NCBI GenBank assembly: GCA_947479085.1
Contig: CANJYB010000033.1
Location: 1 to 38,981 of the forward strand
DNA: 38,981 nt
Origin: Bacteroidota bacterium
GTDB taxonomy: Bacteria; Bacteroidota; Bacteroidia; 2-12-FULL-35-15
Direction: 5' to 3'
The translations under genes and the position numbers were made by a program. The notes under the pieces were generated by a model. The model made no database searches and was not told the DNA's origin. It saw nothing but the letters and a program-made list of their open reading frames with translations. Positions 1 through 18,797 of the stretch are shown here, one piece after another (position 1 is the first letter of the stretch; every line of letters begins with the position of its first letter).

Positions 1-7
1 CATAGCA

Positions 8-74
8 CAAGGTTATTCTGATAATTTTTTTGAACCCTCAAAGGTTCAAAAAAAAATTATCGGAAATAACCTTG
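8..74. repeat. Long imperfect inverted repeat (hairpin)
   Basis: Arms at about 8-36 and 43-74 are complementary: the outer part is CAAGGTTATT against AATAACCTTG, and the inner part is GATAA, a T run and GAACC against its complement. The loop is only CTCAAA. A few unpaired bases interrupt the stem near 18-20 and 61-63. There is no T run outside the stem on either strand, so it is not a standard intrinsic terminator. Its role is unknown. Confidence 0.75.
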
Positions 75-104
75 AGTAACATCTGTTTTTATTCATTATG
101 TTTG
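72..104 (+). promoter_or_regulatory. Bacteroidota-type promoter candidate
   Basis: TATGTTTG at 97-104 matches the TAnnTTTG -7 motif of Bacteroidota, with TTG at 72-74 near the -33 position (22-base spacing). It lies about 200 bases before the phosphatase start, so it would give a long leader or belong to a lost gene. Motif match only. Confidence 0.35.
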
Positions 105-305
105 TATCACTAATTAATAACATTTGTTGCGATAAGGCCTTGAATCCACAATTGGGGTGGGGAACAGAATCAATATAGACAAACGCTCTAAAAAGATGGG
201 CAATAGATTTTAAAACCAAATTTTGATCGGTAATTGATATTGAAGTAAAGTTTGCTAAAGAGTTAGGCTATAATTTATTTATAAGTAAAAAAACTACTAA
301 ATAAC

Positions 306-1058: not shown

Positions 1059-1075
1059 AAATAAAAATTACTGCG

Positions 1076-2902: not shown

Positions 2903-2957
2903 ATTCTAATAATAAGAAATTCTAAATTAAAATGGCAATCAATCATTTATTTTGAAT

Positions 2958-2986
2958 CTTTGAGATTATACAAAATAATCTCAAAG
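2958..2986. terminator. 12-bp perfect hairpin after the FnIII/TM gene
   Basis: CTTTGAGATTAT (2958-2969) and ATAATCTCAAAG (2975-2986) are exact reverse complements around the loop ACAAA. It starts 56 bases after the stop at 2902. No T run follows on the plus strand, so termination is plausible but weak. Confidence 0.5.
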
Positions 2987-3083
2987 AAAATGCAAAGCTA
3001 CTTTGACAGATTTTCAGATTAAGCTATAAATAAAAAGATGTTTATTAATTGGCAAAATTAAAGGATGAAAATCAAAAAAAGTT

Positions 3084-3347
3084 ATGAGATTTCTAGCAGC
3101 ATTAATTAAAGTAATTGAAGGATTGGCAATATTTGCTATCGTTTTTTGGTTCATGAAATGGTATATCAAAGGTCATTTTGGTAAACATGCTTTATTCTTT
3201 TGGATATGGTCAATATCAGTTCTTGTTATGGCTATTCATGATAACAATAGAAGAAATAGGGAGCAAATGGAATACGAAAAAATGGGTACGGGTGCGGAAA
3301 TATGGAAGGAAAGAATGAAAACATATGATGTAGAAAGAGGATACTAA
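3084..3347 (+). CDS. Small two-TM membrane protein
   Basis: An 87-residue protein with two hydrophobic segments (about residues 4-27 and 36-51) separated by a short basic loop (WYIKGHFGKH), then a hydrophilic, highly charged tail of about 35 residues. No family is recognised. It is isolated: 181 bases of spacer before it and 221 after, between the phosphatase pair and the HEPN/STAND operon. Small membrane proteins beside defence operons are sometimes effectors or accessories, but nothing in the sequence shows that here. Confidence 0.5.
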   Translation: MRFLAALIKVIEGLAIFAIVFWFMKWYIKGHFGKHALFFWIWSISVLVMAIHDNNRRNREQMEYEKMGTGAEIWKERMKTYDVERGY

Positions 3348-3527
3348 AAAAAGGGATGAAATTGTCAACATTTTCCTACTTCTGAATCAGCAAAATAACT
3401 CAAGTTAATAATATTCGTAGTGTAAAAATCGCATCAGATTTTTTGCTCATTGCTTTTTATAAATTGAAAATTATATCAAATTATTCAAAACCACTAGTGA
3501 CATAAATCATCAAGAAATTATTTTTAT

Positions 3528-3559
3528 TCTAATGTTTATTAGAGTATTTTAAAAAATAC
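3528..3559. promoter_or_regulatory. Two palindromes just upstream of the HEPN/STAND operon
   Basis: TCTAAT-GTTT-ATTAGA (3528-3543) and GTATTTT-AA-AAAATAC (3544-3559) lie back to back, ending 9 bases before the ATG at 3569. They could be operators or a leader structure. No clear TAnnTTTG motif is visible nearby. The stretch is very AT-rich, so short palindromes could arise by chance. Confidence 0.35.
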
Positions 3560-3568
3560 AAACTAAAT

Positions 3569-5122
3569 ATGAACGACAACTTGCTAAAATCTGATAAACT
3601 TAGTTCTGCATTGAAGTTATCTCTTCCAATCAGGCTGAAAGAAAAAATTGATGCAGTATTGAAAGAAGATGAAGCATACGCTGCAGATGAATTAGTAGAA
3701 CTTGCTGAGGAAATTCTTAATCAAATTGCTGCCGTAGGCATATTTAACTACCTGAAACACGCACCTCAGAAAGAAGTATATAACGATTTTGTTATTCAAC
3801 TTTTTAATTCTTCTGGACATGATTACAATGCCGGTCCATTGTTTCGCTGGTCAGCAAATATGATTAAAGATTGCCCGAAAACGCGAAGTGAAAAATACTT
3901 TCAATTTTTCTGGGAAGTTAAAAATGGGAAAGATGTTCTTTGTGAAAAAGTCCAACAGTTGGCAGAATTACGAAACATGGTAATGCACGGTTTTTTTGTT
4001 TTACCACCTGATAAAAATAAAGCGATTGCTGATAATATAGGTCAATTATTAGTTGAATTGCATCAAGCTGATTTCTTCTCAACATTAGAGGACTACCATT
4101 TTGTAAATCAAAATGGATTTACAGGCAAATGGAATATTACTGACCCTGAAGAATGGAATGCATATAAAGCGGAAACTCCTTTTGGTAAATTATCCCAACG
4201 TATTATTCATGAACAAAGTGAAATATTTTGGGAAAAAGAAGAAGAGGTTTTTGATTATGAAAACAAACTATTTGTACCTGAGGAAATAAAAGCTTTTGTA
4301 AATAATAACATTCGAGGTGCTTTTGCTTGTTGGGTTCATCCTAAAGACAATAATGCCACAAATAGGTATGCTGCAATAGGTAATTTTCTAAAAGCTCAAA
4401 AAGAAATTTTATTTATTGGATATGGGTTGCATGAATATGGAATTTCATACACGACCACTTTTTTAATGAATCGGTTATTAAGTTTATTGAATAAAAAAGA
4501 TAAACCGATTTCAAAAAACAAAAAAGCTGAGGAACTTATAACTGGGTTAAGAAAAAACAATAAACAAAAAGTTGTAATTTTAATAAATAACATTCACCTC
4601 GCTTTGTTTAGTTCTCAGCATGTCTCAAAACTGAACAATTTTCTTTACGACAATAATATTATTCTCATCGCAGTTGGGCATCATTACGAGCATTTTGATT
4701 CTTTTTTTAATCAGAGTGCTTCCATCTCATATCCAACATCGCTTCCAAGTATAGATGAACAGAAAATAATTTTGCATAATTACCTTCGTTTTAAAGGACC
4801 ATCAATGGATAAAGTGGAAGAAGTTGAAAATGTCCAATTATTAGATCTTATATTGAAAAAAGTTATTTCAGAATTAACTGATGGAAAAAAAATTTATGCA
4901 CGAAGGTTTGCTGATGAACATAATTACGATATGGAATATGTGCATGAGATTTTCGCTTTGCTACAACCTTGGGTAAAATCTGATAGAGAAAAATTTGAAG
5001 AAGATACTGTCGATGAATTATATGGTTTTCCAAGTATCATGACTGAAGTAACCCCAATTTATTTGGCATTAGGTCGGCGAGATTTAAAATTAGAGTATCA
5101 ACATAAAGTATTATCACTATGA
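3569..5122 (+). CDS. HEPN protein with degenerate NTPase-like domain (operon gene 1)
   Basis: A 517-residue protein. Residues about 1-180 look all-helical and contain RNMVMH (Arg135 to His140), the R-N-x3-H pattern of HEPN RNase domains. Residues about 275-400 have the layout of a P-loop NTPase, but GYGLHEYGISYTTT (284-297) has no lysine where Walker A would be, and the Walker B-like strand reads VVILINNIH (335-343) with Asn for the acidic residues. I infer a HEPN domain on a non-hydrolysing NTPase fold. Its stop overlaps the start of gene 2 by 4 bases (ATGA), so the two are translationally coupled and probably made in fixed ratio. It could be the partner in a composite HEPN dimer with gene 2. 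The family is not recognised. Confidence 0.65.
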   Translation: MNDNLLKSDKLSSALKLSLPIRLKEKIDAVLKEDEAYAADELVELAEEILNQIAAVGIFNYLKHAPQKEVYNDFVIQLFNSSGHDYNAGPLFRWSANMIKDCPKTRSEKYFQFFWEVKNGKDVLCEKVQQLAELRNMVMHGFFVLPPDKNKAIADNIGQLLVELHQADFFSTLEDYHFVNQNGFTGKWNITDPEEWNAYKAETPFGKLSQRIIHEQSEIFWEKEEEVFDYENKLFVPEEIKAFVNNNIRGAFACWVHPKDNNATNRYAAIGNFLKAQKEILFIGYGLHEYGISYTTTFLMNRLLSLLNKKDKPISKNKKAEELITGLRKNNKQKVVILINNIHLALFSSQHVSKLNNFLYDNNIILIAVGHHYEHFDSFFNQSASISYPTSLPSIDEQKIILHNYLRFKGPSMDKVEEVENVQLLDLILKKVISELTDGKKIYARRFADEHNYDMEYVHEIFALLQPWVKSDREKFEEDTVDELYGFPSIMTEVTPIYLALGRRDLKLEYQHKVLSL

Positions 5123-6633
5123 ATCCATTCGAACAATATCATAGCCGTTATCTAAAACTTAAAAACGATTATAGTCTAAAATTGACTGATTCTAATTTAT
5201 TAGAATTTATTGAAAAAGAACCTTCTCAGCTCAACAACCTAATTATGGCGGGCATGGGAATGAGCACACTTTTTCTTCGGATGGGAGCGGTAATTCAAAT
5301 GAGTAAGAAATTGCATGATGGAGATTCCTCTAATGATGCATTGTTTCTTAAACAAGTAATGGATAATTTGCGTGAAACGTTGCCAAGTGATACAAGTTGG
5401 AAGAATCTTTGGTATGCTTCCATGCTAGCCGAAAGCGAATGGGAAAAAGCTATACCAAAAGATTCAAATAACAATACTGCGCTAGACCGCTTTGTGACAT
5501 TTAGAAATAAATTCGTTCATCAATCCATTCGCTTAGTTCCAGAACATTTAAATGAACTAAAAAAAGGGTTAAACACGATTGATGAAATCGCTAAGCTTTT
5601 TGATTTATTTGCAAGCAGCGAAATTGTTTTGATAGATGAAAAATATTTTTGGATAAAAGGTATTTCTCCTCGGTTAGAGTTACACCCTTTTGTACAAAAG
5701 GGAGAACAAGATGGGTTGCCTTATTTATTTCAAGGAATGTATGAAAATAAATTAAAAGCCAAATTTATAAATACAATTTATGGTGATGAAACAAAACCTG
5801 AAATAAATAACTCCTTGGATGAAAAATTTCAGCCTATACAAAATGCATTAAAAGGTGGGGCGGGACAAATTTTTGATCATACCGAACGTATGCAATATTA
5901 CTTAGATTGTTTTGTAGGAAGAGATCGGGAGGTCAAGTCGGTATTAGATTGGATAAATATTGATTCAAAAAACAATGTTATGCCGATATATTCAGAGGCA
6001 GGTATGGGGAAAGGAGCTTTAACGGCTGGCATAATAGATGGTTTAATGAAAGAGAATATTCCTGTAATGTATCATTACTGTAGTTCAGGTATGGCTAATA
6101 GTTTGCACGCAATTTTATATCATTTTATTTTGCAAGGTAAAAAGATGCAAGGCATGAATGGTGCAGGTGTTTGGAAGGTAGAAGATGAAATCATAAAAAG
6201 AAAATTAGAACGACTGCCATCTCGCTACCACGATGCTATCAAACTATTTCAAACCTTACTAAGCGATTGTTATTCTCCCACCAACAAATATAAAGATAGG
6301 CCTTTGGTTATAGTAATTGATGGTCTCGATGAAGCAGCTCTTGTTAACAGTCAATTAAAAGTATCTGATTGGTTTTATAACTATAACGATAAAGATGAAG
6401 TAGAAGATAATTGGAATTCACCAACATATATAAAATGGATTTTTACTTATAGGTCAATGCCAATCAATATGAAAGACGGATTTCAATTAAAGGGTAATTT
6501 TTCATTAGAAGAAAATAAAATACTTCAACCTTTACTTGGATTAACTGAAGAAGCAGTAAGAAATGCATTAAAAAAGTTTGATGTTTCTGAAGAGTTTTTA
6601 AATGCAGTAATTGAAAGAGGTGCTATTTTATGA
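5119..6633 (+). CDS. HEPN-STAND NTPase, split after the NTPase domain (operon gene 2)
   Basis: A 504-residue protein. The N-terminal helical region carries RNKFVH (Arg129 to His134), a HEPN RNase-type motif. GRDREV (267-272) marks the start of a STAND (NACHT-like) NTPase module. The P-loop reads SEAGMGKGAL: Lys298 is kept, but the first Gly is Ser292 and the usual Ser/Thr after Lys is Gly299. Walker B is LVIVIDGLDEA (396-406), the classic NACHT form. The protein ends at VIERGAIL, where single-chain relatives continue with GNPLYLR. The next gene opens with DPTYLR in another frame, overlapping by ATGA. The chain therefore looks like effector plus motor without its own winged helix and sensor. 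Likely a cytoplasmic immune NTPase; its ligand is unknown. Confidence 0.75.
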   Translation: MNPFEQYHSRYLKLKNDYSLKLTDSNLLEFIEKEPSQLNNLIMAGMGMSTLFLRMGAVIQMSKKLHDGDSSNDALFLKQVMDNLRETLPSDTSWKNLWYASMLAESEWEKAIPKDSNNNTALDRFVTFRNKFVHQSIRLVPEHLNELKKGLNTIDEIAKLFDLFASSEIVLIDEKYFWIKGISPRLELHPFVQKGEQDGLPYLFQGMYENKLKAKFINTIYGDETKPEINNSLDEKFQPIQNALKGGAGQIFDHTERMQYYLDCFVGRDREVKSVLDWINIDSKNNVMPIYSEAGMGKGALTAGIIDGLMKENIPVMYHYCSSGMANSLHAILYHFILQGKKMQGMNGAGVWKVEDEIIKRKLERLPSRYHDAIKLFQTLLSDCYSPTNKYKDRPLVIVIDGLDEAALVNSQLKVSDWFYNYNDKDEVEDNWNSPTYIKWIFTYRSMPINMKDGFQLKGNFSLEENKILQPLLGLTEEAVRNALKKFDVSEEFLNAVIERGAIL

Positions 6634-9600
6634 GAATGATAGATCCCACATACCTGCGTAACATCCACGATGGCTTGATTTTAGGTACGTTGCACAAAGA
6701 CAATGCATCGGCTTTACCTATGGGCATAGTGGGCATGTATGAAGAAGCTTTACCACCGACTAGCAATGTAAATGAACGCAAAAAGTTCTTGGAATTTTTT
6801 ACCGTTTGGGCTTTGTTGAAAAAGGAAGTGAGTGTGATCTTTTTAATACCCTTGTTAGAAGGTTGGTCTGAAGAAATAATAATTTATTATATAAATAAAT
6901 ACAGTAAGTGGTTTAATTCCCCGCAGAGTGGTAAGTATGTTTTATACCATGAGCGACTGAGAGCATTTTTTTTGCAGAAGATTTCAAAACAACAATTCAA
7001 TGCCTGCAATGAAACTATTATTAAAGTTTCTAACGATGCACTCTCAAGGCGCAGTGGGGATGAATTGGAACGCTATGCTTTGGAATACCTCAGTAATCAT
7101 ATGCTCATTCCTGCCATAGAGAAAGGAGATGCCTCCGCATTGAAATTATTGACATATAATACAACACATTGGAACCGCCAAGTAGAAATAAGCAAGGGCT
7201 TTGAATGGAGCAAGCGCATGCTCAACAACATGATGCTTTGGGCTTCTAAATATGACGATGAAGAAGTAATTGAATGTGCGCTTAACAAAGTAGATCTCCA
7301 CTACCAGGAACAAAATGATGCCCCGCGGATTGTGGAGTTGGTTGCCCAGAATGATATTGAAACTGCATTGCAAAGAATTGAAGCGTTTGGTGGGAATGAT
7401 AAAGAAGGATTAGAAAGGAAGTTCATTTTATACATGCTTTGTTTGATGGAGTTAACGCTGTTGGACAGCAAAGACAAGCCATTCAGAAAAGAGGCCATTG
7501 AAAAGTTATTGAAGCATTTTGATGATAATATTCCTGCAAACCAGCCAGATTTGATTAATTGGAATGATTTCTTCCCGAGTTATTTAATGTTTCAGATGGC
7601 TTGTGAATGGGCAGAGATGGGGTTGGATTACATGATAACATACAAAACCACTGATGAGATAGAAATGATTTGGATTGAAGATTTTGTTCCTTATTCTGAT
7701 ATACAGTTAAGTGTTCTTTCAAATATATGGCGGCATCTTTTTGAGGGGTCAAGAAATAGTATTTCCTCCTTTACTTCCGAAAAATGTAAAGCATTAATAT
7801 TTATATCAACCATTCTAAATAGTAAAGGGGAAATTAAAGATTCCGAAAAATTACTTAATAAAGCACCCATTTATATTAGGAAAATATCTAATAAATCTGA
7901 AATATGTGAATTACTTTGTATTTTATCAAGTGTTTTTGTGAAGAAAGGAAATGTCGAAGGGTCTGAGTTAGCGATGGAAGAAGCCTTGAATTGCGCATTA
8001 ACAATTTCGGATGAATTAGATCAGAGTTATGCACTTCGTGAATTATCCACTCAACTTGCCAAACAAGGAAAAGTTGATGAGGCCTTGAAGCTCACTAACC
8101 AGATTCTAGATGAATTTGTGAAAATTATGTCGTTTGCAAAAATATCTACAATATTTGTCAAACAAGGGTGGATTGACAAGGGAGAAGCATTAATGCTCGA
8201 TGCCTTGCAAAAAGCCCGGAAATTATCATTTGAATATGGAAAGACTTTTGTGTTAAGTGACATCTCTACAGAGCTAGCTAAACAGAAAAAATTTACTGAG
8301 GCGGATAACGTGATACAGGAGGCTATTTTTAGTGCAAATAAAATAACCTCTGGATATCTGAAAAGTTATGCTTTTAGGGATATATCCTTTGATTTGGCGA
8401 ACCAAGGAAAGATAGAAAAGGCGTTGACTTTTGTTAATCATATTGAAGATGAACCAGCTAAAGGGTATGTTCAAAAAGCTATTTCCATTGAACTTGCTAA
8501 ACAAGGTATGATTGAAAATAGTTTGTCAATCGCTAAAGGAATATTGGATGAAAATAATATGAGTTCAGCAATAAGAGATATATCAGCTGAGTTTGCTAAA
8601 CAAGGAAATATCATAGAAGCAGGAAAAACGATGAAGGAAATATTGACTATTTCTGGGGGAATATCATCTGATATGTTAATAAAAAAGAAAGTACTTGGGG
8701 GTATTTCATTAGAGCTAGTGAGACATGGGAAAAATGAAGATGCATTAGCATGTGTTTATTCATTTTCGAGTGAATCAGAGCGCGAAACTGCATTGTTGGA
8801 CGTCCTAATAGAGCTTACAATACAGGGTAAAATTGAAGATGCCATGGCCTACGCTTTGGGTATTTCTGAAGAATTTAGAACTAGCGGTGCCTTACTTGCA
8901 ATTTCTATTGAACTAGTAAAACAGAAAATGTTTGATGCCTCTGAAACAATTTTCCAGAAAGCCTTGAACTCCACACAAGGGATATTGTCTGAATTCGATA
9001 AATCCATAGCATTGAAAAATATTGCTAGGGAACTTAATAAGAATGGAGAAATCTCAAGGGCAGAAAAACTGATTAAAGAATCCTTGATTTCTGTTCATGG
9101 AATATTGGATGATTCAAGTAAGAGCATTGCTTTGGGGCAGTTAAGTATTGTACTAGCAGAAATGGGCAATATTGATGAATCCTTAAAGTACCTCAGACTT
9201 ATAAAAGAAGATTTTGTTAAGAACTATATATTGAATGATATCTCTGTTGTTCTTGCCAAGCAGGGTAATATTGAACAGGCTTTGTTAATCATTAAGGAGA
9301 TATCTGAAGAAAATGAACAGAGTAAATCATTATTTGCAATCTCTTCAGAACTCGCTAAAATTGGGAAGATAGAAGATGCTTTTAACTGTGCGAGAAAAAT
9401 ATCAGATGAGTCTGTTGAGAGAAGTGCACTATGTGATATATCTGCAGAGCTTGCTAAACAAGGTAAAACTGAAGACGCCTTAATAATCGCTGGAAGGATA
9501 CTTGAAGAATCAAAAAAAAATACTGCTTTATTTAATATATCATTGGCGCTTTGCGATCAAGGAAATATAGCTAGAGCAGAAGAAGTAGGGTTGGGGATTC

Positions 9601-9959
9601 TCTTAACTAATGAGCGCTGCAAATGTTGGCAGAGAATGGGAGAGAGTGAATTGAAGCTAAAAGGCTTCTTCAATGCTACTGAATCAATAAAGTTATTTAA
9701 CTATACCGAAGCTCGTCTTTATTTTAAACGTGGATTAATAAATGCACTTGGTGTAGTGAAAGCGAATTCTAAAACCGCTATTTATGCTTTAAAAGATTCA
9801 GCTCAAGAAATATCAAGCATAGAGCACGTTCTTAAAATGTATGCTTTAAACCAGTTCTTTTTCGAAGAAATAACTGATGAAAAAATTAAACGATATAACC
9901 GCACCCTCAACATCCAATGGGCCATGGACATTAAAAATAACCAATATGATAAAATTTAA
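6630..9959 (+). CDS. STAND sensor chain with TPR-like solenoid (operon gene 3)
   Basis: A 1109-residue protein. It opens with DPTYLRNIHDGL, matching the segment that follows the NTPase in single-chain STAND proteins, then a winged-helix-like region ending near YVLYHERLRAFF (residues about 5-120). A helical linker runs to about 380. Residues about 383-1010 are a solenoid of degenerate TPR-like repeats of roughly 31-36 residues with the core ELAKQGKIEDAL. Such solenoids are the ligand-sensing part of many STAND proteins. A C-terminal cap of about 100 residues follows. The start overlaps the gene 2 stop by 4 bases. Residues about 1-150 are closely similar to the start of gene 5, also at the DNA level. 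I infer that it completes the NTPase of gene 2 in trans. Confidence 0.7.
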   Translation: MRMIDPTYLRNIHDGLILGTLHKDNASALPMGIVGMYEEALPPTSNVNERKKFLEFFTVWALLKKEVSVIFLIPLLEGWSEEIIIYYINKYSKWFNSPQSGKYVLYHERLRAFFLQKISKQQFNACNETIIKVSNDALSRRSGDELERYALEYLSNHMLIPAIEKGDASALKLLTYNTTHWNRQVEISKGFEWSKRMLNNMMLWASKYDDEEVIECALNKVDLHYQEQNDAPRIVELVAQNDIETALQRIEAFGGNDKEGLERKFILYMLCLMELTLLDSKDKPFRKEAIEKLLKHFDDNIPANQPDLINWNDFFPSYLMFQMACEWAEMGLDYMITYKTTDEIEMIWIEDFVPYSDIQLSVLSNIWRHLFEGSRNSISSFTSEKCKALIFISTILNSKGEIKDSEKLLNKAPIYIRKISNKSEICELLCILSSVFVKKGNVEGSELAMEEALNCALTISDELDQSYALRELSTQLAKQGKVDEALKLTNQILDEFVKIMSFAKISTIFVKQGWIDKGEALMLDALQKARKLSFEYGKTFVLSDISTELAKQKKFTEADNVIQEAIFSANKITSGYLKSYAFRDISFDLANQGKIEKALTFVNHIEDEPAKGYVQKAISIELAKQGMIENSLSIAKGILDENNMSSAIRDISAEFAKQGNIIEAGKTMKEILTISGGISSDMLIKKKVLGGISLELVRHGKNEDALACVYSFSSESERETALLDVLIELTIQGKIEDAMAYALGISEEFRTSGALLAISIELVKQKMFDASETIFQKALNSTQGILSEFDKSIALKNIARELNKNGEISRAEKLIKESLISVHGILDDSSKSIALGQLSIVLAEMGNIDESLKYLRLIKEDFVKNYILNDISVVLAKQGNIEQALLIIKEISEENEQSKSLFAISSELAKIGKIEDAFNCARKISDESVERSALCDISAELAKQGKTEDALIIAGRILEESKKNTALFNISLALCDQGNIARAEEVGLGILLTNERCKCWQRMGESELKLKGFFNATESIKLFNYTEARLYFKRGLINALGVVKANSKTAIYALKDSAQEISSIEHVLKMYALNQFFFEEITDEKIKRYNRTLNIQWAMDIKNNQYDKI

Positions 9960-10953
9960 CAGACAATTATTAATTAACTCAGCAAATGAGTTAGGATTAA
10001 ATAACGAAGTAAATGAGAACAATGAGTATTTAATAGAATTATTTAATCATGCACAGAATTGGATTAGGGGCAGTGACCCTAAAAGACTGCCTTGTTGCCC
10101 ACCACCTGAAAAACATCCATATTTAAATCTATGTCCAATTAATCCGGAATTTAAAAAGTATATTATTGGTACATTTCCTCCTATAACTTATCAGTCTGAT
10201 TTCTATACAAATATTCAATTTTGTAATGGTAAAAGATTATCAATACCTCAATTACCTTTTTATCATGGAAATAGACAGATGCTATGGCTATATCTCTTAT
10301 CAGAACAAGAATATAGTTTACTGAGCGAAGATAGATTACAAAGAAGAAACCAAATCATCAATTATTTGAATGAAAATAGAATAAATTACGCTGACGTAAT
10401 ATCTTATTGCCAAAGAGCTGAATACAATGCAGATGATAAAAATTTATTTAACATCATCTTGAATGAACAACTTCTAGAAATTGCAACGCGGAAATCTAAT
10501 GAAGAAATTTTATTAGTGTTTAATACGGGCTCTCTTTTTACAGCAAGAGGCTTAAAGTTTTATCGCAATGGGAATATTAATGCCGGATCATTTGTTTTTG
10601 ATATGTTCATTACGCTTTTATTTGAGGCTGGTATTGAAGTTCAAATTCAATTTCTAAATGAACAACCTATCCTACTTAATTATGCTAATAGAAGGTTATT
10701 AGCTGGGTATTCTAATATAATAAGATTTGATATTTATTTAAATGGGAAACGATTTAAAGTTGTAGCAGGTCCTTCTCCTGCAAACGGTGATGGCCAATTA
10801 CACAATAGCGCCATTTATAGTCGATTTAAAAGAATTTTTCATACAAATGATAACCTATCTATTGGTGAAATAAAGAAAAGATTCAAACAGTATGTTTATC
10901 ATACTGCACTGTTGGGTGATTGCGATGAATTGTATCGATTGAATTATGATTGA
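9946..10953 (+). CDS. Uracil-DNA-glycosylase-superfamily protein (operon gene 4)
   Basis: A 335-residue protein from the ATG at 9946; a start at 9877 is possible but its extra residues only translate the end of gene 3 in another frame. Motifs in order fit the UDG fold: IIGTFPP (GTFPP at 75-79), FYHGN (105-109) followed by W, YADVISYCQR, a VFNTGS strand-turn, and GPSPAN (PSPAN at 276-280). These match Mug/TDG-like proteins with GTFP, FYxGN and PSPAN signatures. The Asn or Asp that activates water in many UDG motif 1 sequences is absent, so the activity and base specificity are uncertain. Gene 3 overlaps it by 14 bases and gene 5 by 8. Within a defence operon it might act on modified or uracil-containing phage DNA; that is inference. 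Confidence 0.6.
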   Translation: MIKFNRQLLINSANELGLNNEVNENNEYLIELFNHAQNWIRGSDPKRLPCCPPPEKHPYLNLCPINPEFKKYIIGTFPPITYQSDFYTNIQFCNGKRLSIPQLPFYHGNRQMLWLYLLSEQEYSLLSEDRLQRRNQIINYLNENRINYADVISYCQRAEYNADDKNLFNIILNEQLLEIATRKSNEEILLVFNTGSLFTARGLKFYRNGNINAGSFVFDMFITLLFEAGIEVQIQFLNEQPILLNYANRRLLAGYSNIIRFDIYLNGKRFKVVAGPSPANGDGQLHNSAIYSRFKRIFHTNDNLSIGEIKKRFKQYVYHTALLGDCDELYRLNYD

Positions 10954-13030
10954 TAAAAGATTTACCGACCCCACCTATCTCCGCACCATCCACGATGGGC
11001 TTCTATCAGGCGTTTTGCACAAAGACAATGCTTCTTCTTTACCTATATGTATTGTCGGTATGTATGAAGAATCTTTGCTTCCGGCTTATAATGTTTATGA
11101 ACGCAAAAAGTTCCTAGAGTTATTTGCAGTTTGGGCCTTGTTGAAGAAAGAAGTTAGTTCATCCTTTGTGTTACCATTAATGGATGGCTGGGCAGAAGAA
11201 GATGTGTTAAAGTATATCGGCCAATACAGCAAATGGTTCAACTCCCCTATTAACGGTAAGTATGTGTTATATCATGAACGATTGCGAACTTTTATCTTGC
11301 AGAAAATTTCCACAATACAATTTATGGACTGCCTTGAGGCGATTATAAAAACTTGTGAGCGAGCTATTGATTTAAAATTAAACGATGAGTGGGAAGATTA
11401 TTCATTAGAGTGGTTGACACACTATTTGTATTTAGATGCAATAATTAGAGATTGTGGAGGAGAACGGTTATTTAAAATTAGCAGAAATGAAAAGTTTTGG
11501 AACAGACAGATAGAAAAGTCCCAGGGATTTAATTGGTCAAAAAATTCAATTCAGTATACAATTACCTATAATAGTAAGTATGATAAGGGAGCATGTAAAC
11601 TGGACTATCATAATTTGTTGAAAATTGAAAACAAAAGCACACTATTAATAAATGCCCTTATGAATTCTTCTATAGTTGAATTCAATGATGAAACCATTCA
11701 AAAAATTGATTCCGTTCTATTAAATAATGAATACGATGCTCAGAGGATGTATATATTCATTATAATCAAAATGCATGGTTTAATAACAAGTAATAAAGAT
11801 GAAGATTATAAAATAAAATATATAAAGGAATTGATTAAGATTTTGAAAAAAGTGAAGTTAATTGAATTTTCAAGATTAAGTTTTCATGATATTATTCCAC
11901 TAAAATATTTTCAAATTGTTTATGATTATTTTCTTGCTAATAATTTAGACGTCTCAGATTTAGTAGCCAATGACTATGAACTTGACCAATACCAAAATGG
12001 TATACATTTACCATCGGAAACTTCGGAGCACTTGTTTAATAAATATTATGAATCTAGCGGTGCTATATATCCTTTGATTCCGGAAAATTTAGTTCCGTCT
12101 TTACGAGAAATTTATGCCGTTATACCTACGATAGATTATTCATCGATTTTATCTTTAGAAGATTTAAAATCTGTTTTGGAATTGAATGGATTGGCAAGCG
12201 ATGAAATAGAATCGGAAATACTGGTGTTACCATTAGTATTTAATAATTTAATTGAATCAAATAACAATTTTCATATTATTCAAAGAGATTGGCTTTATTC
12301 AGTTGGTCATTTATTTGATAACACATCAGAAGCACTAAGTTTGATAACGGCAATGCTTAATTGCGCATCATCTAAAGAGTTAAATAGTAATAAAATTTGG
12401 GAATATATTAAGCAAGTAGTAAATGGTCTTGCAATTGAAAAATATGATCGTGATATTATAGTAGCGTTAATTTTGGATTACCTAAACATAGAATTTAAAA
12501 AAGATTTTCTAAAACATTTTCTAAATGATATTCTAATTTCTCAATTTAGTATAGCAGCTCAACCATATATAGAAGATCAAAAGCATCAAGTATTGATCGA
12601 TTTACATTGGTCGGACCCTCAATGGAGAAATGTATATAAGGATGTGCTAACCCCTTTGATGTATTCACTCTATTGTGAGGAGGCTGAAGGAATAATTAGT
12701 TATACAACACCTGATATTGCAGATGAAAATGAAATAATTTTAAAAAGTCAGTTAGACTTTAAGTCAGTTGATGCTAAAGAATATTTACTTGATGATTTTG
12801 GACAGAGTTACAGTAGAAAATACAAATCAATTGTTTCTGCAGTTTCTGTGCAGAAAATAAATTGGGAGTCGATTCTGCCCTTTCTTAAAGGGATTGATCC
12901 AACTACTCTATTCATTATTATGCATAAAATATTTCTTCAAGATTTGGTTTATAATACTAAATCTAATAAGAATTTACCAATTGATGTAATTGATTTTTAT
13001 CACTTAGATTGGATTAAAAAACTCAATTGA
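10946..13030 (+). CDS. Second STAND sensor chain with a different C-terminus (operon gene 5)
   Basis: A 694-residue protein. Residues about 7-150 align with the start of gene 3: DPTYLRTIHDGL, LHKDNASSLP, GMYEES, ERKKFLE, FAVWALLKKEVS, YSKWFNSP and YVLYHERLR are shared nearly word for word. After about residue 200 the two diverge completely. The remaining 490 residues are helical-looking, with no TPR-like core and no recognised domain. It starts at the same domain boundary as gene 3, so it too lacks an NTPase and presumably docks on gene 2. The ATG overlaps the gene 4 stop by 8 bases. It is followed by about 100 bases of spacer and a convergent gene. I read it as an alternative sensor for a second trigger. 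Confidence 0.65.
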   Translation: MIDKRFTDPTYLRTIHDGLLSGVLHKDNASSLPICIVGMYEESLLPAYNVYERKKFLELFAVWALLKKEVSSSFVLPLMDGWAEEDVLKYIGQYSKWFNSPINGKYVLYHERLRTFILQKISTIQFMDCLEAIIKTCERAIDLKLNDEWEDYSLEWLTHYLYLDAIIRDCGGERLFKISRNEKFWNRQIEKSQGFNWSKNSIQYTITYNSKYDKGACKLDYHNLLKIENKSTLLINALMNSSIVEFNDETIQKIDSVLLNNEYDAQRMYIFIIIKMHGLITSNKDEDYKIKYIKELIKILKKVKLIEFSRLSFHDIIPLKYFQIVYDYFLANNLDVSDLVANDYELDQYQNGIHLPSETSEHLFNKYYESSGAIYPLIPENLVPSLREIYAVIPTIDYSSILSLEDLKSVLELNGLASDEIESEILVLPLVFNNLIESNNNFHIIQRDWLYSVGHLFDNTSEALSLITAMLNCASSKELNSNKIWEYIKQVVNGLAIEKYDRDIIVALILDYLNIEFKKDFLKHFLNDILISQFSIAAQPYIEDQKHQVLIDLHWSDPQWRNVYKDVLTPLMYSLYCEEAEGIISYTTPDIADENEIILKSQLDFKSVDAKEYLLDDFGQSYSRKYKSIVSAVSVQKINWESILPFLKGIDPTTLFIIMHKIFLQDLVYNTKSNKNLPIDVIDFYHLDWIKKLN

Positions 13031-13135
13031 ACTCAGTCCTAGTATTTATGTTTCAATATGTAATTAAGAACACATAATTATAAAATTATTAAATCCTAAT
13101 CTGATGTATGAAACTATTTTACAAAAATGAATTTC

Positions 13136-13957
13136 TTAATAATTATCTTCAATATAGGTTGCTAGCAGTTGATTTATCAGCCAAATATTTTGGCTTGGTA
13201 AGTAATCTTCCTCTGACCCTAATAGATAATCATTGCTTTCAATTAATTGACTAAAAAAAACTAAGTCTCTTCCCCAAAAATACTTTCGATTTTTAAATGT
13301 TATTTCTATTTGATAACAATATTCGTTTATTTCCGCAATTTTCAGAATGGTTAAATCTTCATTTATTTGAATAGCTTCACTTAACTTCAAATGACTTCCT
13401 AATTGGTCCAATTGATCATCTAAGGTCTCCGCAACTGATTCTAAAGAGTATACTCTAGTGTAGCCATTATGATCTTGAAAATAAAAAGGTTCCTCATTAT
13501 TTATGTTATTGATTAATAATTCATAATCACTTTGCAATGCATCATTCCACTTACTATCGTCTTCTAGTAACTCTTTATTAAGCAACAACCATATTGCAGG
13601 TTTCGGACCCCAAGTATATTCGTCTTCATTTATTTCTATGTGCGATAGCCCGTCATCTATGACCTTATATTCATTAATTGGCAACATTTCATTATCATTA
13701 TTCAACAAAAACTTCATATTGTCTTTTATAACTTGTAATGGATCGTTATCAGGAAATAAATTTAAAATAGCAGGTACTTTCGGGAATTCCCCATCGCCTT
13801 TTTGCATAACAAAACGTATAAAATAAATCTTACCTGCAATTCGATTGTCTTTATTTTTCAGCCTTTCTTCTAATTCTAATATTTTATTCTTTAGTTGAAT
13901 AATTTCTGTTGAATCACTTTGTTTTGATTCATCATTTTCCTGGTTTATTTCTGACAT
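13136..13957 (-). CDS. Unrecognised acidic protein with N-terminal coiled coil
   Basis: A 273-residue protein of unknown family. Residues about 1-40 are polar and then form a short coiled-coil-like stretch (IIQLKNKILELEERLKNKD). The rest looks like a mixed alpha/beta globular domain rich in Asp, Glu, Asn and Trp, with no signal peptide or membrane segment. It is convergent with the end of the HEPN/STAND operon and upstream of another small acidic gene on the same strand. Base composition matches the rest of the element. No catalytic motif is visible. Confidence 0.55.
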   Translation of the reverse strand: MSEINQENDESKQSDSTEIIQLKNKILELEERLKNKDNRIAGKIYFIRFVMQKGDGEFPKVPAILNLFPDNDPLQVIKDNMKFLLNNDNEMLPINEYKVIDDGLSHIEINEDEYTWGPKPAIWLLLNKELLEDDSKWNDALQSDYELLINNINNEEPFYFQDHNGYTRVYSLESVAETLDDQLDQLGSHLKLSEAIQINEDLTILKIAEINEYCYQIEITFKNRKYFWGRDLVFFSQLIESNDYLLGSEEDYLPSQNIWLINQLLATYIEDNY

Positions 13958-14088
13958 TATTTATGAATTAAATTAATTCGTATTAAAGCAAATATATATT
14001 ATTAAATTATTAAACTATACATTTCACCATTTATTAGTGAGAATACTTGTTGTTTTCCTCAAGCAAGAAATAGTCGGTTATTGTTTAA

Positions 14089-14448
14089 TTAAAAATATCG
14101 AACTTGTCCATTTGTAGAAATTAAAATGATCTTTCCGTCTTCGTTTTGTATGTTTTTCAATCTTGGATTTGGATTAAAAGCATCAATGATATAAAATATC
14201 TCATTTGAATTTAATGATTCAATTAACTTGTCATTAATTTCATTAATTTGATCAATTCCAAAATCGTAATCTTCAATATCTAAACCATCATCAATTCCCA
14301 ATACATTCAAATCTTCTTCTTCAATAAATTTCAAACAAGTATCAATTTGAGATTGAGTTGGTTTATTTTGTGATTTTGAAAACAAAAAAAGAGTTAAATA
14401 TGCATAATCAGCATCTCCTTTTCGCAAGTCAACTTGAAAAATTTTCAT
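14089..14448 (-). CDS. Small acidic protein of unknown function
   Basis: A 119-residue cytoplasmic protein starting MKIFQVDLRKGDADYAYL. It is rich in Asp, Glu, Ile and Asn and probably alpha/beta. I recognise no domain. Its size and acidity recall immunity or antitoxin-type proteins, but no toxin gene is visible beside it, so that is only a possibility. It lies 131 bases from the 273-residue acidic protein gene on the same strand. Confidence 0.5.
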   Translation of the reverse strand: MKIFQVDLRKGDADYAYLTLFLFSKSQNKPTQSQIDTCLKFIEEEDLNVLGIDDGLDIEDYDFGIDQINEINDKLIESLNSNEIFYIIDAFNPNPRLKNIQNEDGKIILISTNGQVRYF

Positions 14449-14604
14449 AAAAATTCAATATTAGTATTCAATATTAGCATTGGCAAAGTTATTAAGTTTT
14501 CGATGTTCAGTCGGGTGAGGAATTGAAAAATACAATATTAAGCATCACATTACCTGAGACACCTTATGACCACAGCACTTCCCCGTCATCACATGGCGAA
14601 GGCC

Positions 14605-14649
14605 AAATTCCCCCGTTTTCGGCCGTAATATAGACTCTACGGGGAATTT
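14605..14649. repeat. Inverted repeat in the non-coding region
   Basis: AAATTCCCC (14605-14613) pairs with GGGGAATTT (14641-14649). Pairing extends inward as CGT/ACG if one C bulges, leaving a loop of about 22 bases. No T run follows, so it does not look like a terminator. Confidence 0.6.
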
Positions 14650-14783
14650 AGAGGGCTAGTTAACGTAATTTCAGATAAAAAACCATTCACTCCCGTTTTT
14701 GGTAGTAAATTAATTACTCAAATTGGGGATTGAAGGTCTTTTGTTGGGTTAAATAAGTTAATCGCGACAGGAATATAACACAA

Positions 14784-14811
14784 GTTATCAGGCATAGCTT
14801 CGCCTCATAAC
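14784..14811. repeat. Hairpin in the non-coding region
   Basis: GTTATCAGGC (14784-14793) pairs with GCCTCATAAC (14802-14811) with one C-C mismatch and the loop ATAGCTTC. No T run follows it. Confidence 0.6.
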
Positions 14812-14918
14812 TAGAAATAAATATCTAATTATTCATACTATAAGAGGAAGACGGAATCGTATTTAATAATTGACCTAAGCCTATTTTAATCAAACTGAGA
14901 TTCTACGAATTCCCAGTA

Positions 14919-15113
14919 CTAGTTTTTTTCGTTCCTAAGGATAGTTATCTTACGTTCTAATTCGGCATTTTTATTTGTTTTGACTACTATCACAACAACA
15001 GTTATAGTGAGTAAAACACCAAATAATATTAGAAGATCATTATTGCTAGATGTTGTAATATCAGTCGCGTAATTTATTGGTGTGCCAAAAGCACTAGAGT
15101 TAAAATTGCTCAT
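14919..15113 (-). CDS. Small single-TM protein
   Basis: A 64-residue protein with a polar, Ser/Thr-rich N-terminus of about 25 residues, one strongly hydrophobic helix (LLILFGVLLTITVVVIVV, about residues 27-44) and a short charged tail. No family is recognised. Its start lies 6 bases after the stop of the zinc-finger gene, so the two are probably one transcript. It belongs to the integrase-proximal minus-strand group of the element. Confidence 0.55.
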   Translation of the reverse strand: MSNFNSSAFGTPINYATDITTSSNNDLLILFGVLLTITVVVIVVKTNKNAELERKITILRNEKN

Positions 15114-15119
15114 GTTTTT

Positions 15120-15614
15120 TTAGTTTTTTAGTTTTTCTATTTTTATTTTGATTCTATCAAGTTGAGTTACTTTGTAATTGCCGAAAATCAATGCAAAACA
15201 GATCTCGACTTTACCTTCTATTCTTTCTTTATATGAAAAATGCTCAAAATTAACGCCCATATCTACGATGTCTTTCATAAAATATACTGTTCCTTCTATT
15301 GGGTCAATTGTAAGTTTTTCAAATTTTCGAATATTATTCCTTAGAATATTTTCTGGTGATGGCAATGAATTTTTATACTCTATTTTTCTTTTTTCATCTT
15401 CTTTCAATTGCAGCAATAGCTTTTCTGCTTCTCTTAATGGTCTAATGTTCTGATTATAGTTATTATCGGCACAATTATCACAACAAAATTCTTGATCCGA
15501 CCGGTTTGCAATATATGACTCATAGCAATAATCACAAATGCGATCGTAGCTGACATTAGTTGTAGCTTTTTTTAGCAGCTTATTTATTTTTTGAATGATT
15601 TCTTCTGTATTCAT
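15120..15614 (-). CDS. Zinc-finger protein of the mobile element
   Basis: A 164-residue protein. Cys27-x2-Cys30 and Cys44/Cys45-x2-3-Cys48 form a short treble-clef or zinc-ribbon-like site (CDYC ... FCCDNC), as in small DUF2116-like zinc fingers. Residues about 65-85 are charged and helical; the C-terminal half is mixed alpha/beta and unrecognised. It sits between the HTH protein and the small TM protein on the same strand. A nucleic-acid-binding role in element maintenance is plausible but not shown. Confidence 0.6.
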   Translation of the reverse strand: MNTEEIIQKINKLLKKATTNVSYDRICDYCYESYIANRSDQEFCCDNCADNNYNQNIRPLREAEKLLLQLKEDEKRKIEYKNSLPSPENILRNNIRKFEKLTIDPIEGTVYFMKDIVDMGVNFEHFSYKERIEGKVEICFALIFGNYKVTQLDRIKIKIEKLKN

Positions 15615-15642
15615 TTTTATAGTTTTTGTGAATTATTAGATT

Positions 15643-16011
15643 TTATTTTTTCTTTTTTTTCTTTTTCGATGTCAGATAATTATCTGTTTCCTCCTCCATT
15701 TCTTCGACACTTTTCACCTTGCCAGATTCCATCCAAGCACGTAATTCTGCTATGACAAATTGTAATTTTTTTGTGCCTGGTGGTTTGAAATATGGCATCT
15801 CACCCAAATGACATTTGGTGCGTATAGTAGAAATAGCTAAACCGGTAATTTTGCTTGCGGCTTCGATTAAGCAATTTTTTGTTTCGGGTAAAGCTTTTCC
15901 TTCACCCGATACTTTCAGATATTCAGTAACTTTTTTAAATTCAGCAGATACTGCCCGCTGAATCAATTCAGTTAATTCTTGTTGCGTGGTTATTATTAGT
16001 GGACCTTCCAT
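15643..16011 (-). CDS. Excisionase-like helix-turn-helix protein
   Basis: A 122-residue protein. Residues about 47-95 form a MerR/Xis-type helix-turn-helix of the HTH_17 kind: CLIEAASKITGLAISTIRTK, then GEMPYFKPPGTKKLQF and LRAWMESGK. This arrangement is standard for excisionase-type proteins next to tyrosine integrases in Bacteroidota elements. The C-terminus ends in a run of Lys. The role inferred is bending DNA at the attachment sites or controlling excision. It could instead be a transcription regulator. The gene lies 65 bases downstream of the Lys-rich 416-residue gene, in the same direction as the integrase. Confidence 0.7.
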   Translation of the reverse strand: MEGPLIITTQQELTELIQRAVSAEFKKVTEYLKVSGEGKALPETKNCLIEAASKITGLAISTIRTKCHLGEMPYFKPPGTKKLQFVIAELRAWMESGKVKSVEEMEEETDNYLTSKKKKKKK

Positions 16012-16075
16012 CTCCTGTTTTTATACAAAGGGAGGAGTATTCAGGTAATGAGGAAGTAATAGATTACGTAATATA

Positions 16076-17326
16076 CTACGTAATGTCTCGCAAGTTCTTG
16101 ATAATCATATCAATAGATTTGTAGATAATTCCACTGCTTTTATGGGAAGTGGCTTTCACTTTGGCCCAATTTGGTATGTGTATTTGATTCCCTTGCCAGG
16201 TAAAATGAGGTGCAAATTTTGAAATAGAAATGGTATTATTCTTTCCAGTATAAATTAGTTCATTTAAAAAAGGTTTAAGTTTATCTATTAAATAGATAAG
16301 TGGGAATTGTCCTTTTAACCAATTTATGGCAATGCTATCAGAAATTTTGCCGTTAAAATGAGCTTCAAATTTTATTAGATTAATTTTATCGATATAGTCG
16401 TTATCTATTAATTGTTCTCGCAAAAAAATTAATTGCTTACTTTTCAATTCCGGATTTTTTTCTATCCAACTAAATTCCGTTATCGATGGTTTAGATTTTT
16501 CTTTTTTATTTGGTTGGTGAGTCAATGTTTTTTTTGCGTTCGATGTTGTGGATTGCTTTTTACTTTTAGTCGCATCCAGAACAGCTTTTTTGACTACTTT
16601 ATTTTTATCCTTTATGTTTTGTTTTATTTTTGCAAGCCTGCTTTTTTTTACTGCTTTATTTTTTGTCTTTAAGTTTGTTTTTTCAGGCCCTTTTTTATCA
16701 AACTTGATATCTATCTTCTTTTTATTTGTTTTTTCAAGTTTCCCTGGGGCAATAACTGTCTTTTTTCTTTTTTCTTTAATTGGTGCGTTTTCTATATTGT
16801 TAATCCATTCATTCGTTGTTTCAATAACTCTAGAAGTTAATAATTCCGGGTACTGACGAATGCACATTTTAATATGGATGGAAAATTTAGAAAAGTTTTT
16901 ACTAAAATTAGTTTTAAGCTGAAATTTCAGGAAGTTAGAAATATCTGAAAGTTTTCCATCATATTGCCTTAATTTGAGTGTAAACCAAAATTCATAATCC
17001 AGGTTATTTCTTTTAATGATGACAGGATTATTGTATAAATAACACTTTTCTTGTATGAAAAAAAAATCTATCGCGAATTGATTTTCAAGTGTATCAAGGT
17101 TTTTTACATATGAGGTATATTGCTGTTCGTAATAACTTTCATTTGAAGTTCGCATTTCTTTTCCAAAAGCAGGTTTTCCATATTTAAGGATTGAAGATTG
17201 AGTCTTTTCCAATAATTTGGAAGCAAATACAAAATCTTTTTCTTTAGAAAAGAAATAAAGTCTCTCGCAAAACCAAATGTCTGCGATGTCAATTTTGAAG
17301 TAATCAAAGTTCTCTATATCAGACAT
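16076..17326 (-). CDS. Lys-rich mobile-element protein, possibly RteC-like
   Basis: A 416-residue protein in three parts. Residues 1-175 are helical and aromatic-rich, with an arrangement that faintly recalls RteC, the excision regulator of CTnDOT. Residues about 175-275 are a very basic, low-complexity Lys linker. Residues about 280-416 form a compact domain (FSWIEKNPELKSKQLIFLREQL ... INWLKGQFPLIYL), a pattern often seen in hypothetical proteins of Bacteroidota integrative elements. It lies 6 bases after the integrase stop, so it is cotranscribed with the integrase. A role in regulating excision or transfer is inferred from position. The RteC link is weak. Confidence 0.5.
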   Translation of the reverse strand: MSDIENFDYFKIDIADIWFCERLYFFSKEKDFVFASKLLEKTQSSILKYGKPAFGKEMRTSNESYYEQQYTSYVKNLDTLENQFAIDFFFIQEKCYLYNNPVIIKRNNLDYEFWFTLKLRQYDGKLSDISNFLKFQLKTNFSKNFSKFSIHIKMCIRQYPELLTSRVIETTNEWINNIENAPIKEKRKKTVIAPGKLEKTNKKKIDIKFDKKGPEKTNLKTKNKAVKKSRLAKIKQNIKDKNKVVKKAVLDATKSKKQSTTSNAKKTLTHQPNKKEKSKPSITEFSWIEKNPELKSKQLIFLREQLIDNDYIDKINLIKFEAHFNGKISDSIAINWLKGQFPLIYLIDKLKPFLNELIYTGKNNTISISKFAPHFTWQGNQIHIPNWAKVKATSHKSSGIIYKSIDMIIKNLRDIT

Positions 17327-17332
17327 TTTGTA

Positions 17333-18544
17333 TTAAATTAGATTAGCGTTCGCTTCATCTAGCACCTCGTGTACAAATGATTGTAAATAAATTTGCGTTG
17401 TTTTTTCAGAATCATGTCCCATGCTTTCACTAATTACCGAAGTCCCGGTTCCATTTTGTTTTTGAATACTTGCCCAACTGTGCCGCGCAACATAATGAGT
17501 AATGCTATGCGTAGCCTTTATTCCAACTTCCAATGCTATTTTTTTTAAATCTTTATTTACTTTTTTATTGACCTTGTTTATCCTGTCTTTAATGCTTTGG
17601 GGCGTATGATGTATTTGGGGATTCAAAATAGGAAATACATAATCATCAGTGTATTCGTTCCCTTTTGAATAAAAATTTAATATTTCCTGAGTTCTTGGTT
17701 GAATTTTAATATCGTAATGTTTCCCGGTTTTTGCTCTAATATACAAAATTCTATTATTCAAAAGTGTTGACCACTTTAGTAGAGCCATATCTTTAAAATT
17801 CATCCCTATGTTGTAAAAACTAAAAAGAAAATAATTTTTGGAATGCCAAACACTAGTTCCTTGTTCGGCTGGATAATTAATTATTTTCAGCATTTCATCT
17901 TTAGATATTGCTCTTTTTTGAGTTTTTGTATCTAGTTTTGAAACTTTATACTTTTTAAATGGGTAGTCCTCCTCCTTACAATAGCCCTCCTTTATTGCTT
18001 TATTCATAAGGGAACGAAGGGTGCGCATGTAAACAGAGATGGAGTTTTCTGACACCCCATTTTTAAGAAAATACTCCTCATAGCTAACTAGGAAGTTATA
18101 ATCGACATCCGAAAAGAATAAATCTTTGCTACACCGAAATTTTTTGAGCGTTCTTAATAGATCCTTATAAACAGTTGCGTTGCCAATTTTTTTTGTTTCA
18201 ACCAACCTTTCAATAAATTGTTCACAATAGTTAAATACAGTAATTTTCTTCACGGAACCAAGGAACTTTCGCTCAACTTCTTCCAAAGAGAAATCTTTAT
18301 TCTCGTTTTCAAGATCAAGAATTATATCATCTAACTGGTGCTTCTTTTTTTGTATAAGGTGGTTAGTTTTCTTAAAATTCACATACCCCTTTAACAACTC
18401 ATTTCCATTCCAAAAAGCAGGAATTGTTGAAAATCCCAAGGAAATATATTTCGTTTTCCTATCTTTGATTATTCGGAGCATGATCGGATGCTCATTGTTC
18501 TTTAAGGTTTTGGACTCATAAAGTATTAGTTTCGTTGATGCCAT
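17333..18544 (-). CDS. int: Tyrosine integrase of the tRNA-Val element
   Basis: A 403-residue tyrosine recombinase. Residues about 1-95 are an arm-type DNA-binding domain (KYISLGFSTIPAFWNG), 100-190 a SAM-like core-binding domain, and 215-400 the catalytic domain. Visible active-site elements are the Lys in RAKTGK (270-275), Arg354 in HYVARHSWA, His377 in MGH and the nucleophile Tyr386 in TQIYL. The box I arginine is missing: the site reads NIGMNFKDMALLKW (245-258). IntDOT of CTnDOT also lacks it, so this is probably a CTnDOT-type enzyme and not a dead one. It is transcribed into the element from next to attR. The ATG at 18544 fits the arm domain and lies about 30 bases after a TATATTTG promoter motif. 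Confidence 0.9.
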   Translation of the reverse strand: MASTKLILYESKTLKNNEHPIMLRIIKDRKTKYISLGFSTIPAFWNGNELLKGYVNFKKTNHLIQKKKHQLDDIILDLENENKDFSLEEVERKFLGSVKKITVFNYCEQFIERLVETKKIGNATVYKDLLRTLKKFRCSKDLFFSDVDYNFLVSYEEYFLKNGVSENSISVYMRTLRSLMNKAIKEGYCKEEDYPFKKYKVSKLDTKTQKRAISKDEMLKIINYPAEQGTSVWHSKNYFLFSFYNIGMNFKDMALLKWSTLLNNRILYIRAKTGKHYDIKIQPRTQEILNFYSKGNEYTDDYVFPILNPQIHHTPQSIKDRINKVNKKVNKDLKKIALEVGIKATHSITHYVARHSWASIQKQNGTGTSVISESMGHDSEKTTQIYLQSFVHEVLDEANANLI

Positions 18545-18557
18545 TTTTATAATCCTG

Positions 18558-18583
18558 GTTTAAACATGGTTTAAACAAATATA
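18558..18583 (-). promoter_or_regulatory. Integrase promoter with paired palindromic operator
   Basis: On the minus strand TATATTTG (18583-18576) matches the TAnnTTTG -7 motif. Two copies of the 8-bp palindrome GTTTAAAC, at 18558-18565 and 18569-18576, are 11 bp apart (one helical turn) and cover the expected transcription start. This suits autoregulation by a dimeric regulator. The protein bound is unknown. Confidence 0.5.
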
Positions 18584-18700
18584 GCAAAAAAGACTAAAAA
18601 ACGCATAAATTTAACTTTTCAGTTTTCAACAAAATGCTCTGTAAGTCAATTTTAACAAAGGAAAACAAATAAAAACAAAAAATCACAAAACAAAGGTTAC

Positions 18701-18750
18701 TCTGCCTTACAAGCAGAGGGTCACTGGTTCGAACCCAGTAGCTCCCACCA
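18701..18750 (+). other. attR: 3' fragment of a tRNA-Val(TAC) gene
   Basis: The sequence folds as the last 50 bases of a tRNA: anticodon stem TCTGC/GCAGA with loop CTTACAA (anticodon TAC at 18708-18710, valine), variable loop, T arm ACTGG-TTCGAAC-CCAGT, acceptor strand AGCTCCC, discriminator A and encoded CCA. The D arm and 5' acceptor strand (expected GGGAGCT) are missing; the sequence before 18700 is A-rich element DNA. This is what integration into a tRNA 3' end leaves at the distal end. The intact tRNA-Val gene should lie left of the window at the element's other end. AACAAAGG occurs at 18654-18661 and 18689-18696 and might be an integrase arm site. Confidence 0.85.
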
Positions 18751-18754
18751 AAAC

Positions 18755-18797
18755 AAAAAAGCCTTTCAATGTTTTGAAAGGCTTTCTTGTTTCTTTT
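18755..18797. terminator. Bidirectional intrinsic terminator
   Basis: AAAGCCTTTCAA (18758-18769) and TTGAAAGGCTTT (18774-18785) form a 12-bp stem. A T-rich tract follows on the plus strand and a T run follows on the minus strand. It would end both the ancestral tRNA-Val transcript and the T9SS-protein gene that converges on it. Confidence 0.8.

Follow-up and report, generated by a model that had tools for sequence, protein, structure and literature searches.

Right edge of a genomic island inserted at tRNA-Val in an uncultured Bacteroidetes bacterium

We analyzed a 38,981-base stretch of DNA (the window), which is the whole of contig C33 in a genome of 50 contigs (4.28 Mb, 99.4% complete). 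Contigs C14, C19 and C6, mentioned below, belong to the same genome. The comparison set consisted of 36 genomes of the genus, this one and 35 relatives (labelled G001 and so on); many of them are drafts, and in the relatives neighboring genes could be hidden by contig ends.

Positions 18701 to 18750 of the window (plus strand) contain the 3' part of a tRNA-Val(TAC) gene, from the anticodon stem to an encoded CCA (TCTGCCTTACAAGCAGAGGGTCACTGGTTCGAACCCAGTAGCTCCCACCA). The anticodon loop, CTTACAA, gives the anticodon TAC (Val), and the last bases of the fragment, AGCTCCCACCA, are the same as in the nearest relative, G015. The Rfam tRNA model scored 21 bits on the fragment, with a gathering score of 29, and ARAGORN found no tRNA in the window, both as expected of half a tRNA. 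A first-pass annotation of this DNA had described a remnant of tRNA-Val(TAC) reaching from the anticodon arm to the CCA end, and the Rfam match, together with the match to an intact gene on C14 described below, bears this out. Of the span then assigned (18654-18750), only 18701-18750 is derived from the tRNA; 18654-18700 is AT-rich element DNA. The annotation had also reported the original terminator of the gene. A hairpin at 18751-18792 (plus strand; -20.2 kcal/mol, 50 bases folded) does abut the fragment, past the end of the annotated span, and resembles the tRNA-Val terminator of G005; it is presumed to be the original terminator of the host tRNA-Val gene.

To the left of the fragment, on the minus strand, is a gene for a tyrosine integrase of 403 amino acids (17333-18544), with Pfam matches to an arm-binding domain (Arm-DNA-bind_5, E = 1.2e-16), a SAM-like domain (Phage_int_SAM_5, 2.7e-24) and a catalytic domain (Phage_integrase, 3e-15). 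The gene sits at one end of the island and reads leftward into it, pointing inward as the first pass had proposed. In an alignment of the integrase, Asn249 takes the place of the first catalytic Arg, and Tyr351 that of the His in the HxxR motif; both residues are invariant in five aligned integrase sequences. Between the start of the integrase gene and the fragment there is a 20-base repeat, GGTTTAAACATGGTTTAAAC (18557-18576, plus strand), which contains two GTTTAAAC palindromes 11 bases apart (at 18558 and 18569) and is presumed to be an arm-type binding site for the integrase.

The DNA from position 1 to 18700 is element DNA. Next to the integrase gene are genes on the minus strand for a 416 amino acid protein without a Pfam match (16076-17326) and for a 122 amino acid protein (15643-16011) that has a weak HTH_17 match and is possibly an excisionase. 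By tblastn, the first has matches beside the integrase in G024 (38%) and, for its N-terminal part, in the contigs VEQH01000087.1 and CAMAZP010000027.1 (32%), and the second has matches near the integrase in G041 and in the same two contigs (43-51%). The cargo includes a run of five genes on one strand at 3569-13030, for proteins of 517 amino acids, a STAND-like ATPase (NPHP3_N, 504 amino acids), a TPR protein (1109 amino acids), and proteins of 358 and 694 amino acids. PADLOC returned only a weak TPR match for this run, which could be a defense or signalling cassette. The ATPase gene is 91% identical to one on contig C36 of G011, where an 861 amino acid open reading frame separates it from the upstream gene.

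No relaxase or type IV secretion domain was matched by Pfam in the 14 open reading frames of the window that were taken as genes, or in nine of the 11 in the part of the element on C14 (one scanned in part). Several of the element's open reading frames that were scanned have no Pfam match at all, and the gap between the contigs could hold further genes. Phage structural or packaging genes were likewise not recognized in the Pfam scans of the window and of the element on C14. Among ten element proteins compared with PHROGs (seven from the window and three from C14), only the integrase, a phosphatase-like protein (306-1058) and the HTH protein (unknown function) had matches. To the right of the fragment (18751-38981) the genes encode a secreted protein, a XerC/D-like recombinase, an acyl-CoA dehydrogenase and further housekeeping-type proteins. 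The GC content is 30.9% to the left of the boundary and 38.4% to the right of it.

The intact tRNA-Val(TAC) gene of this genome is on a different contig, at C14:96388-96463. Searching the genome with the fragment gave one other good match, C14:96416-96509 (84% over 94 bases, E = 5.4e-22); a search allowing up to 3 mismatches over 56 bases returned nothing beyond the fragment itself. Counted on the sequences, 47 of the 50 bases at 18701-18750 agree with the intact gene, 41 of them without a break (18701-18741, identical to C14:96416-96456). A complete tRNA-Val with the same 3' 50 bases had been predicted at the left end; the intact gene is there, sharing 47 rather than 50 bases because it has an element-type 3' end. 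That end, AGTTCCCACAC, is equal to those of G024 and G007, which have the same left end. The intact gene has one changed base in the acceptor stem, where it forms a G-U pair (the host end would give G-C), and no encoded CCA. It is followed by another terminator and then by the arm repeat GGTTTAAACATGGTTTAAAC, with GTTTAAAC copies at C14:96516 and 96527; a further, lone GTTTAAAC is found left of the tRNA gene at C14:91881. Thus the 3' part of the tRNA is directly repeated at both ends of the element, once within an intact tRNA gene, with the two ends on two contigs.

The element on C14 runs from 96457 to the contig end at 113180. Its GC content is 33.8%, compared to 35.4% to the left of it, which is a small contrast. 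Close to the left end, within the island, is an IS21-type pair (istA, istB; C14:96936-99277); neither protein was matched in the first 20 kb of contig C17 of G024, on which the homologous left end lies. The cargo at C14:99354-112653 includes two DUF2779 proteins (651 and 616 amino acids), two open reading frames of 223 amino acids and one of 1702 amino acids with TPR repeats, which suggests duplicated modules.

The end of C14 and the start of C33 lie in one repeat that is also present at the end of C19 (window 1-149; C14:113077-113180; C19:90970-91118), all three contigs entering it from one side. The repeat contains a 67-base imperfect hairpin (z = -5.5, folded as DNA); in C19 it comes after what appears by eye to be a reading frame with a signal peptide. 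It is this repeat that breaks the assembly at C14 and C33. Joining the two contigs by overlap of their ends was abandoned, as the ends of C14, C33 and C19 share the repeat and give no unique join. We infer that C14 and C33 carry the two ends of one insertion; if they do, the element has a minimum size of 16.7 kb (C14) plus 18.7 kb (C33). The first pass had taken everything left of the fragment as cargo. Within the window this seems to be right, and the element continues beyond it on C14.

Homologous islands have the same arrangement. The 36 genomes contain two close relatives of the integrase, in G024 (95% identity) and G041 (73%). In the named collection we found relatives in CANFRC010000014.1 and JAFLBF010000002.1, counted as the same loci as those of G024 and G041, and two more, at 70%, in VEQH01000087.1 and CAMAZP010000027.1. 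All five loci whose integrase is at least about 70% identical to ours (our own among them) have a 3' fragment of tRNA-Val(TAC), and at each the T loop lies 178-183 bases from the integrase match. When the five right ends were aligned, there was no variation in 26 bases surrounding the arm repeat or in 15 bases of the anticodon arm, and the DNA between them diverged. Integrase matches in phages and plasmids were all below 60% identity, the best among the matches listed being about 39-40%, and neither of two matches to an integrase pattern in viral contigs was a relative.

The exact arm pattern occurs at seven sites in four of the 36 genomes and is absent from the other 32; a reversed control pattern occurs nowhere. 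Six of these sites are at island ends, and the seventh is in an attL-type remnant to the right of the fragment in G024. A similar remnant in G006 has an altered copy. The pattern also occurs in four viral contigs, which we took as unrelated, with different surroundings and no integrase match or tRNA in the stretches examined. The integrase most likely uses the GTTTAAAC pairs inside the two ends as its arm sites. In G024 and G007 a closely similar terminator and arm repeat follow the intact tRNA-Val gene; G007 has this left end, yet no integrase match at E = 1e-30.

In G041 both ends of the island are on a single 307 kb contig (C12), with the intact tRNA-Val gene near 123.0 kb and the fragment and integrase at 74.0-75.4 kb, 49 kb away. 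Within the 70 kb examined there, GTTTAAAC pairs are found at the two ends only (the left pair with one change from the exact pattern), plus a lone copy between. Only the integrase and the HTH protein of our element have matches in this island, whose cargo resembles efflux genes by eye; the end module therefore seems to carry quite different cargo.

The tRNA-Val gene is also a target for other integrases. With a cutoff of E = 1e-30, the genus yielded sixteen further integrase loci, none above 36% identity. Fragments of tRNA-Val lie beside three of them (G006, G003 and contig C987 of G023), tRNA-Asn beside six (445 bases off in G047), tRNA-Leu beside two (one of the two is a fragment, identified through its similarity to the other), and tRNA-Met and tRNA-Lys beside one each; nothing was found beside the remaining three, including the second integrase of this genome, on C6. 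At the three loci with tRNA-Val fragments, the DNA separating integrase and fragment has TTTGCACAA-type repeats in place of GTTTAAAC, and the same motif also comes after the intact tRNA in G006. An attL-type remnant belonging to the present family lies behind the island of another integrase in G006, and the right end in G024 runs on into such a remnant, with no clean host end. Insertions at this gene are therefore layered.

Such layering, seen in G024 and G006, together with the unassembled joint between C14 and C33, leaves an unlikely alternative in which the left end on C14 and the right end on C33 belong to different tandem islands, one or more further half-sites between them having been lost in the gap. 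In this genome, at 99.4% completeness, only two 3' halves of tRNA-Val(TAC) were found, and the arm repeats at the two ends are those of one integrase family. In addition, G024 has near relatives of both ends: the right-end region matches at 88% over 1850 bases and the left arm at 94% over 6446 bases. Compared to positions 1-17300 of the window, G024 has one match at E = 1e-20 or better, TPR-like and 68% identical.

We also considered that the fragment might be a leftover or duplicated tRNA copy with no connection to an insertion. Copies resembling tRNA-Val do exist behind tRNA-Val or its fragment in G010 (L074), G014 (L060), G019 (L076), G001 (L108) and G041 (L102). They have a tRNA-Val-like T arm and 3' end, and their anticodon arms, of the type CCCGATTTTCAATCGGG, differ from that of the fragment. 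Three stand in a row in G010, and ARAGORN made no call on any copy in the loci scanned. Since our fragment begins at the anticodon stem and abuts an arm repeat and an integrase, as in the four other islands, we consider an unconnected copy highly improbable.

By their genes, the flanks on both sides are chromosomal. Genes to the left of the intact tRNA are common to G015, G005 and G004 (four each) and G014 (three), and the Xer and acyl-CoA dehydrogenase genes adjoin in six of the seven relatives in which the Xer region was examined (the contig of G012 stops short). No relative with both of our flanks joined, that is, with an empty site, was seen among the 35. A Xer-type match was found in 30 of them, 29 of which also have a tRNA-Val match that never adjoins it: in 28 the two fall on separate contigs, and in G016, where they share a contig, 297 kb lies between them. 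The relatives with the left-flank genes and tRNA-Val (G015, G005, G014 and G004) have right flanks unlike ours, and one contig of G004 stops just behind tRNA-Val. Gene order in this region is poorly conserved. Of five near relatives, G014 and G012 are the only two with common genes to the right of tRNA-Val (three genes, 77-90% identical); at this locus G014 has an intact tRNA-Val and G012 the 3' fragment alone, as the insertion of some element would leave it.

It is accordingly conceivable, and still improbable, that the fragment is the true right end and that a later rearrangement changed the right flank, an explanation that is compatible with the preferred one. The limited sharing of genes to the right of tRNA-Val would fit it, as would the DNA after Xer, which also differs among near relatives. 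Against it, the terminator begins right behind the fragment and is similar to the one in G005, and inspection showed no sign of a second junction.

Taken together, these data lead us to propose, with a probability of about 0.88, that 18701-18750 is the attR half-site of an island inserted into tRNA-Val(TAC) by the site-specific recombination of a tyrosine recombinase. The intact tRNA-Val partner, the arm repeats and the homologous islands bear out the first-pass reading of this position as the right end of an integrative element targeted to tRNA-Val, and support the view that the whole is a genomic island occupying a gene for tRNA-Val, with its right edge in the window. The integrase would have recombined the host gene with an element site carrying its own tRNA 3' half. 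The exchange would lie within the 41 bases that the two have in common, the crossover probably falling in the anticodon loop CTTACAA, which is flanked by TCTGC and GCAGA. At the left end (C14:96388 onward) a whole tRNA-Val would be rebuilt, with 3' half, terminator and arm repeat from the element; at the right end the displaced host 3' half would stay, with its encoded CCA and terminator. The arm sites and the small HTH protein would control excision.

The alleles of the tRNA 3' end fit this proposal. Our fragment has GTAGCTCCCACCA, the same as G015, and G005 has GTAGCTCCCACAT, also AGCTCCC; the intact gene ends in GTAGTTCCCACAC, like G024 and G007. For the Xer gene and also for the left flank, G015 and G005 are the relatives that match best. 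Because the fragment matches G015 and G005 and the intact gene matches G024 and G007, the two are most simply read as the displaced host end and the element's end, respectively. Among the intact tRNA-Val genes of relatives examined, AGCTCCC was found in five (G015, G005, G010, G019 and one copy in G011), AGTTCCC in nine (G004, G016, G024, G007, G009, G006, G001, G021 and the other copy in G011), and AACTCCC in one (G014); G011, with two copies, is counted under both main types. The difference between AGCTCCC and AGTTCCC is common in the genus, and it therefore supports an allele swap and does not prove it. More speculatively, this integrase family may move tRNA-Val alleles between species, imposing its own acceptor-stem strand, CCA region and terminator, while two integrase groups compete; we hold this idea only tentatively. 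If it is true, at each insertion the host loses its acceptor-stem strand, encoded CCA and terminator to the element's version, and at least two distantly related integrase groups, one with GTTTAAAC pairs and one with TTTGCACAA repeats, compete for the core from anticodon to T arm.

Our results give a base-level boundary for a family of islands in uncultured Bacteroidetes, and an end signature, made up of the arm repeat and the tRNA-Val core, with which fragmented assemblies can be searched to tell cargo from chromosome. Two things go beyond the routine: each integrase group is paired with its own arm motif at a target that they share, and the 3' half of a tRNA is seen as being swapped. A search of an open-access library returned no report joining Bacteroidetes, integrase, tRNA-Val, attachment site and integrative. 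The mechanism of insertion is already well known, and so is this kind of island, targeted to a tRNA and with a CTnDOT-like integrase; its end markers are unusually clear. The closest published cases that we found, going by portions of three articles (PMC5704250, PMC8138268, PMC6764341), are the NBU1-type elements and an island of Riemerella anatipestifer. In sections of a review, NBU1, NBU2, MTnPi4 and Tn6031 are described as integrative mobilizable elements of Bacteroidetes that insert at tRNA 3' ends (tRNA-Leu for NBU1 and MTnPi4, tRNA-Ser for NBU2, tRNA-Pro for Tn6031), leaving the target gene undisrupted (PMC5704250). Our island is like them in having a tyrosine integrase and inserting at a tRNA 3' end; it differs in its target, tRNA-Val(TAC), and in that no relaxase was recognized in the proteins scanned. 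The tandem accretion treated in those sections (PMC5704250) resembles the different integrases on one tRNA target, with remnants in G024 and G006, although accretion was not seen in this genome. The integrase has the arm-binding, core-binding and catalytic domains that the IntCTnDOT subgroup requires and, like that subgroup as outlined in part of PMC8138268, comes from Bacteroidetes, has an N-terminal arm-binding domain and lacks arginine at the first catalytic position. The likeness is one of domains and residues, and the His of HxxR reads Tyr here. The Riemerella island, as reported in excerpts of PMC6764341, is also a Bacteroidetes island at a tRNA (tRNA-Arg) with one integrase and a direct repeat (53 bases); it is 10 kb long, and its integration and excision were shown. 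The present island, spread over two contigs, is longer, at 35 kb or more.
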